Origin: a bacterium
Lineage (GTDB): Bacteria > JAMCPX01
NCBI GenBank assembly: GCA_021789095.1
Contig: JAJYJX010000023.1
Location: 1-18,808, forward strand
Direction of reading: 5' to 3'
Length of the DNA: 18,808 nt
Under the pieces are notes generated by a model. It searched no databases. It saw nothing but the letters and a program-made list of their open reading frames with translations, and was not told the DNA's origin. Numbering within the stretch: the stretch's first letter is position 1; every line of letters begins with the position of its first letter. The translations under genes were made by a program, and so were the position numbers. Positions 5,738 to 18,729 of this stretch are shown here, piece after piece.

Positions 5738-5846
5738 TTTACCCCGTTAGAAAGCCCCACCATGTATGGCGGGGATAATATGATAGGATTCAAACTCCCT
5801 ATGGAAAGGGTGTGGTTCAAAGTAACGTCTTTTCTAACGGGGTTTA
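5738..5846 (+). mobile_element. 101-bp palindrome-ended element between TTTA repeats, upstream of the aldehyde dehydrogenase
   Basis: The element spans 5742-5842. It begins CCCCGTTAGAAAG and ends CTTTTCTAACGGGG, an inverted repeat with one extra T, and is flanked on both sides by TTTA (5738-5741 and 5843-5846). Inside are a hairpin at 5755-5774 (CCCC-x-CCAT paired with ATGG-x-GGGG) and a second one, CCCT...AGGG around a GGAA loop. The frame starting at the left TTTA stays open to the right TTTA, reading TPLES at the left and SFLTGF at the right. The element ends about 20 nt before the gene start and leaves its ribosome binding site intact. A second 101-bp copy lies upstream of metK, and two related ones lie in pilin genes. 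The internal layout recalls ends of IS200/IS605-type elements; that is only a suggestion. Confidence 0.65.
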
Positions 5847-10500: not shown

Positions 10501-10814
10501 ACTACCTCCTCGGCTATTGATTATATACTACTTACAAAACAAATCCTGTTCAGTCAAGTAAGAATTTTTGAATAATTTTCAATTGTGGATTACCGCAGCC
10601 ACAGGCGGCGGCTTCCAAAAAACTACAAAATGTCATTCCCGTGAAAACGGGAATCCAGCTCTTTTTTATCTTTTCTTTTTAAAGACTATTTCTGGATTCC
10701 GCATCAAGTGCGGAATGACGGAAAGAAATAGCCTTACTACTTGGCGGCATGGCCAACTTTCCATAACCACCGTCAAAGACGGTGGATTTTTACTTCGTAT
10801 TAAATCTTGAATCT
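10501..10814. repeat. Intergenic region with an inverted pair of dispersed REP-like repeats and a hairpin
   Basis: No gene is seen in these 314 bp. At 10631-10658 is TGTCATTCCCGTG...CGGGAATCCAG and at 10692-10721 its inverted partner CTGGATTCCGCATC...GCGGAATGACGG; each unit is itself a hairpin and the two face each other across an AT-rich spacer. Similar units occur at 14351-14472. At 10767-10785 a hairpin CCACCGTC-AAA-GACGGTGG is followed by ATTTTT on the plus strand, which has the form of an intrinsic terminator but has no plus-strand gene upstream. The promoter of the OmpA-like gene must lie at the left end; I could not fix its boxes. Confidence 0.75.
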
Positions 10815-11528
10815 TCAATCCGGATTCAGCATGGCCGTTACTTCCGGGGAATACCCGCCCGCTTCATGAACGATCAACGGCGGAAGAATGCCGAGCTGCT
10901 TTCCGCCGCCTTTCCTTGCAAGCATCAAAAACACATCTGAAGGTCTGTCCTTTGTTCTATGAACAAACCTGAGTACCTCGATATGAAATCCCCTTATACA
11001 AGTGAATACTTCATCTATCCTGCGTGAAATAAACAGCATGATCAAATAACCTTTCGGCTTCAGGAGGTAACGTGCTGCCTTGAAAATATTTTCTATTGTC
11101 AGGTACTTGTCGCTGTGTGATGACTCAAGTCCGCTTCTTGTACCCTTTTTGACTGTCCCTTCTCTGCAAAAAGGCGGGTTTGTCACAAGAGCACCATACG
11201 ACTGTGCGCGGAAAAGTGTTTTATATGCATTTATATCGGCATTCATAAACCGGACACCGTTCTCTGAGTCGTGCATCTGCCGGTTCTTTAAAGACGCGAG
11301 ATAAAGATCCCTGTTTATTTCAACACCCGTTACACCTGATACCCCGGGGTGTTTCGACAGGAGTATACTTATAATCCCCGATGCCGAGCCTATCTCCAGC
11401 ACGCTGCCCTTTGCATATTTCGAAGCAAAGTCATAAAGTATAACCGTATCAATATTAATCCTGTATCCATGAGATGGCTGATAAAATTTGAATTCAGGGC
11501 TTATGATGCTGTCAAGGGTAAACCCCAT
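10815..11528 (-). CDS. TrmN6-like SAM-dependent RNA/small-molecule methyltransferase
   Basis: A 237-residue class I methyltransferase of the TrmN6/YfiC type, known members of which methylate N6 of A37 in tRNA-Val. The SAM-binding motif VLEIGSASGIIS is at 44-54, the acidic end of strand 2 at GVEINRD (68-74), and the catalytic NPPF at 117-120, typical of N6-adenine methyltransferases. The frame is open further upstream, but those 34 extra codons are a translated dispersed repeat (11565 onward) and vector-like in composition. The ATG at 11528 has GAGGAG 6 nt upstream and begins the conserved GFTLDSI, so it is preferred. It is downstream of ahcY on the same strand, 135 bp away, and could be a distal operon gene. 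Confidence 0.75.
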   Translation of the reverse strand: MGFTLDSIISPEFKFYQPSHGYRINIDTVILYDFASKYAKGSVLEIGSASGIISILLSKHPGVSGVTGVEINRDLYLASLKNRQMHDSENGVRFMNADINAYKTLFRAQSYGALVTNPPFCREGTVKKGTRSGLESSHSDKYLTIENIFKAARYLLKPKGYLIMLFISRRIDEVFTCIRGFHIEVLRFVHRTKDRPSDVFLMLARKGGGKQLGILPPLIVHEAGGYSPEVTAMLNPD

Positions 11529-11564
11529 ATTGCTCCTCTGTCTAAACCAGAACACAAATCCGGC

Positions 11565-11650
11565 TGTCATTGCGAACGAAGTGAAGCAATCCCCGGGTGT
11601 ACCTGTGGATTGCTTCGTCATGGCGCTCAAGCGCCATTCCTCGCAATGGC
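11565..11650. repeat. Dispersed inverted repeat (GTCATTGCGAACGAAGTGAAGCAATC type)
   Basis: GTCATTGCGAACGAAG...GCAATCC on the left is answered by GGATTGCTTCGTC and CCTCGCAATGGC on the right, with an internal hairpin ATGGCGCT-CA-AGCGCCAT. The same family appears in part at 14311-14343. It fills the gap between ahcY and the methyltransferase gene. Confidence 0.75.
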
Positions 11651-11663
11651 GTTTTCTATTACC

Positions 11664-12947
11664 CTAGGTCCCGCTCTTCCATGACGCAAGGTAAGCCTTC
11701 TGCCGCGGTGTAAGGCTGTCGATCTCTATACCGAGTGTCTTCAATTTTATTACGGCGATATTCTTGTCGATATTTTCCGGAACGGGATAAACTGTTTTCT
11801 CAAGCCTTGATGCATTGGTCTTTAAATATGCAACCGAGAGCGCCTGGTTGGCAAAACTCATGTCCATGACACTTGAAGGATGCCCTTCTGCTGCCGACAG
11901 ATTCACGAGCCTTCCGTCTGCAAGCACGTATACCGCCCTCCCGTTCGCAAGGCGGTATTCCTCTACAAACTCCCTTACCTCTCTGTGATTTCTGGATATG
12001 GACCGAAGCGTTTCAAGGTCAAGCTCTACGTTAAAATGGCCTGAATTTGCCACGATCGCCCCGTCTTTCATGTTCAGGAATTCATTTTTCGATATCACGG
12101 TTGTGTCGCCGGTTACCGTAACAAAAATGTCTCCTATCTTTGAGGCTTCCCTGATTGACATTACATAGTAGCCGTCCATTGCAGCCTCGAGTGCCCTTAC
12201 GGGATCGACCTCTGTTATAATAACCCTTGCGCCCATGCCTTTCGCGCGCATTGCAACGCCCCTGCCGCACCAGCCGTAACCACACACAACAAATACAGAT
12301 CCTGCCATGAGCCTGTTGGTAGCCCGGAGTATGCCGTCTATCGTGCTCTGTCCCGTGCCGTACCGGTTGTCAAAGAGGTGCTTTGTGTAGGCATCGTTAA
12401 CCGATATGATCGGATATGCAAGCTTCTTCTCCTTTGCCATGCTTCTCAACCTTATAACGCCTGTTGTTGTCTCCTCTGTCCCCCCTATGACATTCCTGAG
12501 AAGGTTTCTTTTCTTCGTGTGGATGGTGCTGACAAGGTCCGCACCGTCGTCCATGGTTATCATGGGCTTTATTTCAAGTACCGAGAAAATATGCTTATAG
12601 TATGTTTTCGTGTCTTCCCCTTTTATGGAAAAGGTCGGCACATCAAAGTATTTTACAAGTGCCGCTGCAACATCGTCCTGCGTGCTGAGCGGGTTTGAAG
12701 CTGCAAGCGCAACATCAGCACCTCCAACCTTCAATACGCGCATAAGGTTCGCAGTTTCTGTTGTTACATGAAGACAGGCGCCGATCCTCAGACCCTTGAG
12801 AGGTTTACGCCTGTTGAAATCCTTCTCGACCTGTTTCAATACACCCATTGATCTATATGCCCATTCAATGCGCTGTTTGCCTGTCTGTGCCAGGCCCATG
12901 TCCTTTACATCATATTCCCTTATCGGATTTTTTACCGGCGGTTTCAT
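11664..12947 (-). CDS. ahcY: Adenosylhomocysteinase (S-adenosyl-L-homocysteine hydrolase), short form
   Basis: A 427-residue NAD-dependent enzyme that splits S-adenosylhomocysteine into adenosine and homocysteine, removing the inhibitory product of SAM-dependent methylation. Visible marks: HVTTETANL (60-68), MDDGADLV (132-139), [10 protein letters not shown] (155-164), [13 protein letters not shown] with the catalytic Lys189 and Asp193 region, the NAD loop GYGWCGRG (223-230), SGHFNVE (302-308) and [19 protein letters not shown] (347-365). It lacks the roughly 40-residue insertion and the C-terminal Lys-Tyr extension of the long bacterial/eukaryotic form, so it belongs to the short type seen in archaea and Thermotoga-like bacteria. 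Its ATG overlaps the metK stop (ATGA) and its ribosome binding site GAGAGGTG lies within metK, indicating translational coupling. Confidence 0.95.
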
Positions 12948-15879: not shown

Positions 15880-16773
15880 ATGCATCAGATATTTAAACTA
15901 ATAAAGAACACAAATTCCCCCTTTCTCCCCCTTTGTCAAAGGGGGAGAAAGGGGGAATTAACGGTGTTTATCCCGTTACATCTTAAAGCTTCATTTTTTG
16001 GACGGAAGTTAAATAACGTGTTGAACAAACTATCTCAAATAAACGGTTTGATAAGAAACGGGTTGACAGATGTAACGGGATTTACACTCATAGAACTTAT
16101 GGTTGTTATACTTATTGTAGGTATTATGGGTATTATAGCAGCACCGAACATGAGGAGCTGGTATACCGGCTTTCAGGTAAGAAGCTGTGCAGATAGTATA
16201 ACGAACACACTCGTAACAGCAAGGATGAACGCAATTAAAAATGGCAATAATGTTGTAGTGGCTTTTTACACAGCCGGCAACTGCCCTAAAACTGTTGCGG
16301 GGATTGGCACCAATGTACCAGCAGGGACAAGCTGCTATTTCATAATCAATGATGCAGACAATGATTGCCAATTGCTTGCAGATGTATCAGGGGGCGGCTG
16401 TATCCAGGCAGGCGAGTTCAACGGTGTGGTAAATACCTGTTCATCAAGTATTGTTTTTCCTGCAGCTATAGTTCCAAAGCCTGGAGCAGGATTTACAGTA
16501 ACAACTACCTATTGCGCTGTTACCGGTATTAATACTACGCCCTGTGTAATACCCAATGCTTGCACGTTTTGTACGGGCAATGTTGGAGCAGTAGCATTTC
16601 TGCCAAGTGGCTATGCCCAGTTTTTGAGTGCAGGAGGACCTAATGGCGGCGGTAATATGTTGGGCGGCAGCGTGACGGTAATACCATCAATGGACGTGAC
16701 GAATAACGACAGCTCAAAGGAATACGCAGTAGGCATTATAAGCCTGACAGGCGCTGTTAAGGAGTTTTACTGA
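15880..16773 (+). CDS. FimT/GspH-like minor pseudopilin with an enlarged leader
   Basis: A 297-residue type IV prepilin, first gene of a minor-pilin operon. The prepilin peptidase site is G67|F68 in DVTGFTLIELMVVIL, with the expected Glu at +5 (Glu72) and a hydrophobic helix to about residue 88. The mature part fits the GspH/FimT type, but is unusually cysteine-rich (ten Cys between 103 and 231), suggesting several disulfides. The leader is 67 residues instead of the usual 6-25. ATG 15880 is well placed after ACGGAGG. Two in-frame insertions explain the length: a 47-bp palindrome (15913-15959) and a 110-bp element (15971-16080). Removing both leaves MHQIFKLIKNTN joined to GFTLIEL, an ordinary leader. 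The family assignment is secure; the role in pilus priming is inferred from the operon. Confidence 0.82.
   Translation: MHQIFKLIKNTNSPFLPLCQRGRKGELTVFIPLHLKASFFGRKLNNVLNKLSQINGLIRNGLTDVTGFTLIELMVVILIVGIMGIIAAPNMRSWYTGFQVRSCADSITNTLVTARMNAIKNGNNVVVAFYTAGNCPKTVAGIGTNVPAGTSCYFIINDADNDCQLLADVSGGGCIQAGEFNGVVNTCSSSIVFPAAIVPKPGAGFTVTTTYCAVTGINTTPCVIPNACTFCTGNVGAVAFLPSGYAQFLSAGGPNGGGNMLGGSVTVIPSMDVTNNDSSKEYAVGIISLTGAVKEFY
15913..15959. repeat. Perfect 47-bp palindrome inside the fimT-like leader
   Basis: Two 23-bp arms, AATTCCCCCTTTCTCCCCC plus TTTG and the exact complement, flank a single central T. It is translated in frame as NSPFLPLCQRGRKGELT within the prepilin leader. The C/G-run structure is like a dispersed repeat rather than a gene-specific signal. 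In RNA it would form a hairpin of about 20 bp beginning about 33 nt after the start codon. Confidence 0.9.
15967..16084 (+). mobile_element. 110-bp palindrome-ended element inserted in frame in the fimT-like leader
   Basis: The element spans 15971-16080, with perfect 13-bp inverted ends TCCCGTTACATCT and AGATGTAACGGGA, flanked on both sides by TTTA (15967-15970 and 16081-16084). TTTA to TTTA is 114 bp, 38 codons, with no stop. The left arm encodes PLHLK and the right arm encodes DVTG directly before FTLIE. The bases just left of it, TTAACGGTGTTTA, look like a decayed right end of another copy. Confidence 0.7.
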
Positions 16774-17370: not shown

Positions 17371-18729
17371 ATGATAAAGGAACAAAAGGGTTTTGCCCCG
17401 TTACATCTAAAAAACACGGCCTTCAGACAATGGATAAAGAGTAAATCAAATACCGGTTTAATAAAAAAGCTCTCTTCTAAAGGAAAAGATGTAACGGGGT
17501 TTACCCTTGTTGAAATGGCGGTTGCCCTTGTTTTGTCATCATTAATATTAATTGCTTTAATGGGCACATTCATACTACAAGGCAGGGCATATACAGCTAC
17601 AAGGATGTCCACAGAATTGCAGGACAATGCAAGAACAGCGCTTGATACCATTGAAATGATGGTGTCAAATGCAGGATTTGGTGTTGTCAAATCTACTTCC
17701 CATCCGCCAAACGACGCAGCAACTCCGGATTCTGCTGCCTTTTATTTCCCGAACTATAGTACCGGTACTTTTGGATATGGTACTGGACAGGACAACTATA
17801 AGAATTCAACAATGGATGGCACGGAATGTTCCGTAACTCAAGGACTTACACAAGCACAGAACGGGGGGCCGTGCCCACCATACGGTACTGACAGCTTAAC
17901 GTTTGCTTATAGGGACCCGCAATACCAGGGTACAATTACCGGTATAAGTACAGCTCCATTTGAACTGATCTATACTGATAATTTTCCGTTTTTAGCATTG
18001 CAACCCGGTGATGTTACATTCTTAATAGGCGGAAATCACGGCTTATCAGCACTTGCAACAATAGCACCAAACAGTGCAGGCGGTGGATCAGGAGGAACTG
18101 TTACCCTTGACCTCTCCGGTGTATCAACAGGGTCTGCTGGTTTTTATAATGAAATAACATTAGCAAATCCAAACTTAACAAATGTTGCAGCAGCACTTTC
18201 GAATAATGGGTTTTTAGAAAAGGTAAATGTTGTTCATGTCTATGTTGACTATTCAGATGCAAATCACCCTGTTTTAATGATGCAGATAAACGGCAGCAAT
18301 CCTTTGCCGCTTGCGGACAATATAGAGGACTTTCAGGTGCAGTTTATAATGGATGACAGTATCCTTGCTACAGGTACCAATACAACCAATCCCGATAATA
18401 TAATGGGTTCTGCTGCAATTCCGAAGTATCCTTCTTTTGCCAATAACTATTTTCCTGCTACAGATACTGCAAATCACCCGCATCAAAACCCTTTAAACAT
18501 CAATGCAATAATTATAACTTTAGTGGCAAGATCAGATGTACCAAGCCAGAGCGTTGCTACTGCTTCACAACAGCTTATAGCAGATCACGATACTACTAAT
18601 AATGCAACGCAATATCCCACACCTTTACTGGGTCAACTGGCAAACTATCAAAGGCAGGTATATCAGCGGATAATTCAACTGCCAAATATAAGAACTGTTT
18701 CAAAATTGTTTGATAATAGCATGCTATAA
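17371..18729 (+). CDS. PilW-like minor pilin with an enlarged leader
   Basis: A 452-residue type IV prepilin. Start ATG 17371 follows AAGGAG with good spacing. The functional peptidase site is G43|F44 in KDVTGFTLVEMAVALVL, with Glu48 at +5 and a hydrophobic helix to about 69, followed by TELQDNARTALDTIEMMV, the helical continuation typical of PilW. The C-terminus has long strand-rich, Ser/Gly-rich stretches. The leader begins MIKEQKGF, which would itself be the expected end of a short leader, but a 36-codon in-frame insertion (APLHLK...DVTGF) separates it from TLVEM. It is 10 bp from the pilX-like gene and in one operon with it. Confidence 0.82.
   Translation: MIKEQKGFAPLHLKNTAFRQWIKSKSNTGLIKKLSSKGKDVTGFTLVEMAVALVLSSLILIALMGTFILQGRAYTATRMSTELQDNARTALDTIEMMVSNAGFGVVKSTSHPPNDAATPDSAAFYFPNYSTGTFGYGTGQDNYKNSTMDGTECSVTQGLTQAQNGGPCPPYGTDSLTFAYRDPQYQGTITGISTAPFELIYTDNFPFLALQPGDVTFLIGGNHGLSALATIAPNSAGGGSGGTVTLDLSGVSTGSAGFYNEITLANPNLTNVAAALSNNGFLEKVNVVHVYVDYSDANHPVLMMQINGSNPLPLADNIEDFQVQFIMDDSILATGTNTTNPDNIMGSAAIPKYPSFANNYFPATDTANHPHQNPLNINAIIITLVARSDVPSQSVATASQQLIADHDTTNNATQYPTPLLGQLANYQRQVYQRIIQLPNIRTVSKLFDNSML
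17392..17503 (+). mobile_element. 104-bp palindrome-ended element inserted in frame in the pilW-like leader
   Basis: The element spans 17396-17499, with perfect 13-bp inverted ends CCCCGTTACATCT and AGATGTAACGGGG. The flanks are TTTG (17392-17395) and TTTA (17500-17503), 108 bp apart, 36 codons, with no stop. The left arm reads PLHLK, the right arm DVTG, as in the fimT-like gene; the inside also shares NTGLIKK versus INGLIRN. Excision between the flanks would restore MIKEQKGFTLVEM. Confidence 0.72.

Follow-up and report, generated by a model that had tools for sequence, protein, structure and literature searches.

An intergenic 101-bp MITE and the proposed minimal GIY-YIG transposon with host-sparing ends to which it would belong

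The window, that is the whole stretch of 18,808 nucleotides of contig JAJYJX010000023.1 that was analysed, contains a short inverted-repeat segment between a gene for an MBL-fold protein (end 5707) and a gene for an aldehyde dehydrogenase (ALDH, start 5867). The segment is intergenic and can nevertheless be read as protein from one end to the other, and the question that it raises is what kind of sequence it is and whether it is built to be translated. The original prediction had described a 101-bp element with TTTA on both sides and inverted ends, lying outside genes and with a frame open from TTTA to TTTA, and each of these points is borne out (Table 1). The inverted repeat 5741-5753/5831-5843 is 13 nt long and 100% complementary (13/13), and CCCCGTTA occurs four times in the window (in 2 elements) compared to 0.41 expected, a count reached in 0 of 200 shuffles. 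In the frame set by the left TTTA the copy reads F-TPLESPTMYGGDNMIGFKLPMERVWFKVTSFLTG-F without a stop over 105 bp (101 + 4) or 35 codons.

The MBL-fold gene and ALDH are also adjacent in the relatives G001, G004, and G006, where the gap between them is shorter, and the ALDH-upstream site is without the element in five relatives. Because these sites are empty, 5742-5842 is an insertion, a MITE. The same palindrome could be viewed as a non-mobile structural or regulatory sequence (REP-like, a terminator, or an RNA element) with its pilin frames coincidental, and the strand that carries the copy does fold better than shuffles (z -2.74). This explanation is highly improbable as it is already contradicted by the comparisons of occupied and empty sites, in relatives and in paralogues, and the target-site duplications (TSDs), the in-frame insertions in pilins of several phyla, and the nuclease-coding versions discussed below also stand against it.

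Table 1. Features of the window that are associated with the element (positions are those of the window; the arrow marks the prepilin cleavage point).
Feature	Position	Strand	Basis or remark
Left target-site duplication, TTTA	5738..5741	.	Sequence
101-bp MITE, reported feature, non-autonomous	5742..5842	.	Absent at orthologous site in five relatives
Left terminal inverted repeat, CCCCGTTAGAAA	5742..5753	+	Frames PR-stop, PVR, PLE
Right terminal inverted repeat, TTTCTAACGGGG	5831..5842	-	Reads FLTG, then F from TTTA
Right target-site duplication, TTTA	5843..5846	.	Sequence
Pilin-like protein (N_methyl), long leader	15880..16773	+	Pfam
110-bp in-frame copy in leader of the pilin-like protein	15971..16080	+	Ends TCCCGTTACATCT/AGATGTAACGGGA; coordinates counted from sequence
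PilW-like minor pilin (PF16074, N_methyl), long leader with element	17371..18729	+	Pfam
104-bp in-frame copy in PilW leader	17396..17499	+	Ends CCCCGTTACATCT/AGATGTAACGGGG; flanks TTTG/TTTA; GFAPLHLK...KDVTG↓FTLVE

MITEs and in-frame palindromic elements (RPEs) are already known in bacteria. In the source genome (G000), where copies were gathered through pattern searches and fetched regions, about 60-90 short copies of the element are present. With a pattern search, 36 copies were found that have perfect ends and an interior of 60-90 bp, and ends with at most one mismatch number about 182 (97 + 85). From the fetched regions 57 distinct paired elements of 32-124 bp were extracted, each with at least 12 of 16 end positions matching, and the end pair of the family can be written CCCCGTTAG...CTAACGGGG. 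In most of these 57 copies the two flanking 4-mers are identical, in direct orientation, and read TTTA or TAAA, and 46 of the copies are intergenic in an ORF-based classification. The 101-bp sequence itself has 27 matches in the source genome and many in the relatives G001, G003, and G004, and its full-length copies are ~70-84% identical, so the subfamily is old. The family thus has the terminal inverted repeats, the target-site duplication, and the short, non-coding, multi-copy nature of MITEs.

An excess of open frames over shuffled sequences had been anticipated for such copies and did not appear, as the TPLE frame is open in 33 of 114 cases (57 copies in both orientations) compared to 28.2 after dinucleotide shuffling of the interiors. 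Lengths that together with one flank give a multiple of three are found in only about half of the copies (2, 0, and 1 modulo 3 in 29, 19, and 9 of the 57). Copies that are both in phase and open number 24 against 16.2 expected, a surplus that comes largely from one 101-bp subfamily whose members are related and not independent, and the open frame of the copy upstream of ALDH is common to this subfamily. Since there is no general excess and 46 of 57 copies are intergenic, the open frame of the intergenic copy carries little meaning.

Translated copies are found in three pilin genes of the source genome, two of them in the window (Table 1) and one elsewhere (C13 in L003). The 110-bp copy lies between TTTA at 15967-15970 and TTTA at 16081-16084 and reads FIPLHLK...TDVTG↓FTLIE within a pilin-like protein that we take to be FimT-like; the PilW-leader element has orthologues in G001 (as a tandem double copy), G004, and G005. 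The tandem in the G001 PilW leader (L264) is also in frame and reads DGFTPLHLEGS...ADV DGFTPLHLEGS...ADVTGFTLVE. Directly 5' of the 110-bp element, in the same leader, a second and unrelated 35-nt palindrome (CCCCCTTTCTCCCCCTTTG..., window 15901-15971) is translated as well (NSPFLPLCQRGRKGEL). In all, 3 of ~58 copies in the source genome fall in 7 pilin genes where 0.06-0.2 would be expected (P 3e-5 to 1e-3); one further locus, L054, was classed as a pilin by motif match and is probably not a pilin.

The reading of the ends at these sites is simple: the left target and end, TTT ACC CCG TTA GAA, give F T P L E, and the right end and target, CTA ACG GGG TTT A, give L T G F T, recreating the Gly↓Phe site of prepilin peptidase. 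That the right end with TTTA encodes the T-G-F of a prepilin cleavage site had been predicted and holds in pilins of many phyla, where short copies sit at G↓F-T and each restores LTG↓FTLIE. A scan of GTDB genomes found at least 117 stretches in which the right end is joined to FTLIE or FTLVE codons, and among the matches listed these come from Omnitrophota, Patescibacteria, Planctomycetota, Nitrospirota, Elusimicrobia, Riflebacteria, and others. Among the same listed matches, 63 of 72 pilin copies with an exact TSD have a length of 2 modulo 3, which makes the element with its TSD divisible by three, and several of the out-of-phase copies have, by eye, an internal Met in frame with the pilin. 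The suggestion that the element moves between coding sites is therefore right in that it moves, enters coding sequence, and does so in phase in pilins, but the open frame of an intergenic copy is no evidence of translation.

How strongly the element is associated with pilins depends on how the copies are collected. The pilin share of 72/79 in the junction scan is biased because that scan selected on the pilin junction. A less biased count gives 33 pilin junctions in 18 of 193 Omnitrophota genomes compared to 2 for a reversed-pattern control, and in G070, a genome picked for having pilin hits, 6 of 48 listed ends are at pilins. Within a pilin gene cluster (L170) an empty paralogue, MDKRKAFTLVELL, can be aligned with a filled one, MDKRKAFTTSEIKISNGASKRVLTGFTLVELL, and the insertion is exact with TTTA duplicated. 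In G060, two copies in different pilins have 98.9% identity, against only 59% in the alignment of the pilin sequence downstream, which is good evidence of recent movement. The enrichment need not be due to targeting and could also arise if harmless insertions are kept, or by duplication of pilin genes or recombination; that pilins are in excess over intergenic sites points to more than survival and is no proof of targeting.

Exact direct repeats flank 85 of 103 pilin-site elements and 41 of 87 other complete elements, and exact inverted pairs are found at 3. The target logo (T 0.89/A 0.89, flanking G/C 0.48) corresponds to a palindromic preference for (G)TWWA(C). At 46 of the 87 non-pilin elements the two flanks differ, frequently with TTCA paired with TAAA or TTTA, and a simple TSD model does not account for this. 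The nuclease-coding copies of the source genome and G001 are 98.9% identical with a left flank that is partly conserved, and further out the identity is ~55-70%. Both the unequal flanks and the conserved left flank would be compatible with a transfer that includes some adjoining sequence, as happens in gene conversion. Two side observations concern flanks: on many contigs of G001 a recurring flank, TGAACATACAGAGGACTGAAATCT, comes next to the element ends, as if the element were part of a larger repeat family, and on several contigs of G070 copies lie inside another dispersed repeat (CTGCG-TTCA-TCTGCGTCCC), resulting in repeated TTCA duplications.

A rival reading is a homing endonuclease gene that would cut uninterrupted pilin sites and spread via double-strand-break repair with co-conversion of the flanks, the intergenic copies being strays. 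The GIY-YIG family has homing members, the element clusters strongly in pilins, two near-identical copies have a common left flank, TAGTGGCTTCA, with unequal TTCA/TTTA flanks, and the source-genome and G001 copies, together with part of the flank beside them, are far more similar than the sequence further out. We nevertheless consider homing improbable as inverted ends and TSDs are foreign to homing genes, the recognised target is only ~4-6 bp, and most copies in the source genome are intergenic. A long homing target was considered and rejected since the logo contains only (G)TWWA(C).

The reading that we prefer depends on a longer form with matching ends, ~263-291 bp in length, that has a single ORF for a GIY-YIG nuclease. 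The 101-bp MITE, which is of type II, has only the ends in common with it. The source genome has one such element (C172:298-575), and in three genomes a whole nuclease lies in frame within a prepilin leader. The pilin insertions at L095 and L155 (275 and 281 bp) contain the complete nuclease in frame, and at L155 one ORF has GIY-YIG, N_methyl, and GspG (Pfam T2SSG) domains. The pattern CCCCGTTAGA, 243-273 bases, TCTAACGGGG was matched in 20 of 384 Omnitrophota and 7 of 379 Patescibacteria genomes, and the reversed pattern in 0. Most but not all of the matches encode the nuclease; L251 passed the nuclease filter without encoding one and L216 and L250, both of nuclease length, failed it, so the counts overstate nuclease elements somewhat. 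The ORF is nearly always open through the right end to LTG and outside pilins is usually ended by the duplicated target, by the TAA of TAAA or the TGA of TGAA. The idea that the element itself is translated thus applies to this longer form, a protein-coding unit open through both ends, and is not supported by the short copies in the source genome, which have no general open-frame excess.

The nuclease belongs to the GIY-YIG superfamily (PF01541, E 7.8e-16), with Y9, Y11, Y22, G24, R32, and E56 invariant and E68 nearly invariant. An AlphaFold model (pLDDT 88) has UPF0213 and the branched-DNA nuclease Slx1 as its best PDB folds. The median dN/dS is 0.15, with ~0.06-0.09 for the closest moderately diverged pairs, and the nuclease is thus maintained by purifying selection. 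No match to it was found in plasmid or phage records, and IMG/VR contained 0 full elements and only distant relatives of the nuclease.

These MITEs could instead be an ordinary family moved by some conventional (DDE) transposase, with the GIY-YIG gene as cargo or a hitch-hiker. Terminal inverted repeats with a 4-bp TSD are typical of DDE transposition, the TSD is exact in half of the copies, and many genomes with MITEs lack a perfect-ended nuclease element; only 5 of the 24 genomes with pilin MITEs that were tested had a pattern match to one. The longer end pairs, however, hold pilin or unrelated ORFs and no transposase ORF, and at ~263-291 bp the only ORFs are GIY-YIG, with no DDE, HUH, serine, or tyrosine transposase of a classical insertion sequence among them. 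The nuclease ORF also spans the element end to end in several phyla under the constraint given above, and there is no space for a second gene. A DDE transposase is thus unlikely to be the mobility enzyme, if somewhat less so than homing.

We propose a minimal GIY-YIG transposon, and consider it probable that the feature is a MITE belonging to a mobile element with a complete form of ~263-291 bp and a single gene, for a small Slx1/UPF0213-like nuclease. The common ends, 4-bp TSD, multi-copy spread, and empty and filled sites are observed, as are mobility over evolutionary time, the nuclease ORF filling the complete element, the host-sparing junctions, and the in-frame insertion at prepilin cleavage codons in several phyla; that the nuclease catalyses the movement is inferred from association only. 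The nuclease would cut the inverted-repeat ends, perhaps as hairpins or cruciforms because its fold is that of branched-DNA nucleases, would cut the target with a 4-nt stagger, and would mobilise MITEs in trans. At pilin sites TTTA+CCCCGTTAGAA is read as FTPLE and CTAACGGGG+TTTA as LTGF, so that the insert, whether MITE peptide or whole nuclease, becomes an extended leader that prepilin peptidase would cut off at the new Gly↓Phe site. On the wider claim, that this transposable element is of a new class, being autonomous at <300 bp with a GIY-YIG nuclease as its sole enzyme and ends read as protein, and settling at prepilin cleavage sites where the peptidase frees the nuclease in a processing-dependent analogue of an intein, our judgement is evenly divided.

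If the nuclease is the mobility enzyme, the element would rank with the smallest autonomous DNA transposons and be, to our knowledge, the first transposon on GIY-YIG chemistry. Neither an inverted-repeat element whose sole gene encodes a GIY-YIG nuclease nor a nuclease housed in a prepilin leader is known to us. No description of the element was found in the open-access literature on GFTPLE/LTGFTLIE motifs, on GIY-YIG in connection with pilins or TIRs, and on pilin elements of Omnitrophota. Like bacterial MITEs and insertion sequences it has terminal inverted repeats, a TSD, and non-autonomous copies that far outnumber the coding form, whereas the sole enzyme found is GIY-YIG and not a DDE, HUH, or serine/tyrosine transposase, and the total is <300 bp. 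As with inteins, a nuclease is translated within a host protein that is retained after its removal; in contrast, there is no self-splicing domain, removal would need the host prepilin peptidase at the recreated Gly↓Phe, and only the leader would be lost. GIY-YIG homing endonucleases and free-standing nucleases (PMC1564403) also reside inside conserved genes, but the present element is without an intron or intein and has inverted ends, a TSD, a short target, and in-frame expression with the host protein. CPR rRNA genes contain non-intron insertions coding for GIY-YIG (PMC11270868) that may be related to the present element; among 20 loci taken from the nuclease-length searches, Rfam identified only a tRNA and a 5S rRNA, and insertion in a large rRNA gene was not seen in this sample. 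Rickettsia palindromic elements (RPEs; PMC10969869) are multi-copy palindromic repeats of ~100-150 bp in frame in protein genes whose hosts are presumed functional. The present element resembles them by description and differs in its 4-bp TSD, apparent autonomous nuclease form, occurrence in many phyla, and strong bias to prepilin cleavage codons. Like RPEs, it is inserted in frame in unrelated protein genes, which in the source genome include, besides pilins, those for UvrA (L079), an NrfD/cytochrome c protein (L028), and a DUF1858/DUF2249 protein (L001).

Insertions at the borders of genes suggest other ways in which the host could be spared. At start-codon sites (L235, L236, and L237) ATGAN is split, with ATGAAC CCC GTT AGA leading into the nuclease on the left and GTGAN with a long open frame on the right, and similar GTG junctions are found at L220 and L242. 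An ATGAA start thereby becomes GTGAA upon insertion, and GGGG+TGAA leaves a GTG start that overlaps the TGA with which the nuclease stops. At stop-codon sites the left end supplies TAG: in two genomes (L232 and L234) the element is found where a long ORF ends, presumably with the C-terminus of phosphoglycerate kinase, to which the left end supplies PR-stop, and the start just 3' of it is, in our reading, that of tpiA. Since harmful insertions get lost, these host-sparing positions may be the ones that survive and not the ones that are chosen. How selfish elements persist harmlessly in essential or expressed genes becomes a testable question here, and the answer, if the proposal is true, would be ends that are functional in three frames (stop, fusion, and cleavage site). 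The proposal would also account for the unusually long leaders (GFTPLE...LTGFTLIE) that many annotated pilins of uncultured bacteria have; such leaders could distort the calling of gene starts and the prediction of pilins. Elsewhere in the window, 10568-10810 (SRENGNP...FRIKCGMT) and 11349-11684 (CHCERSEAI) resemble other dispersed bacterial repeats.
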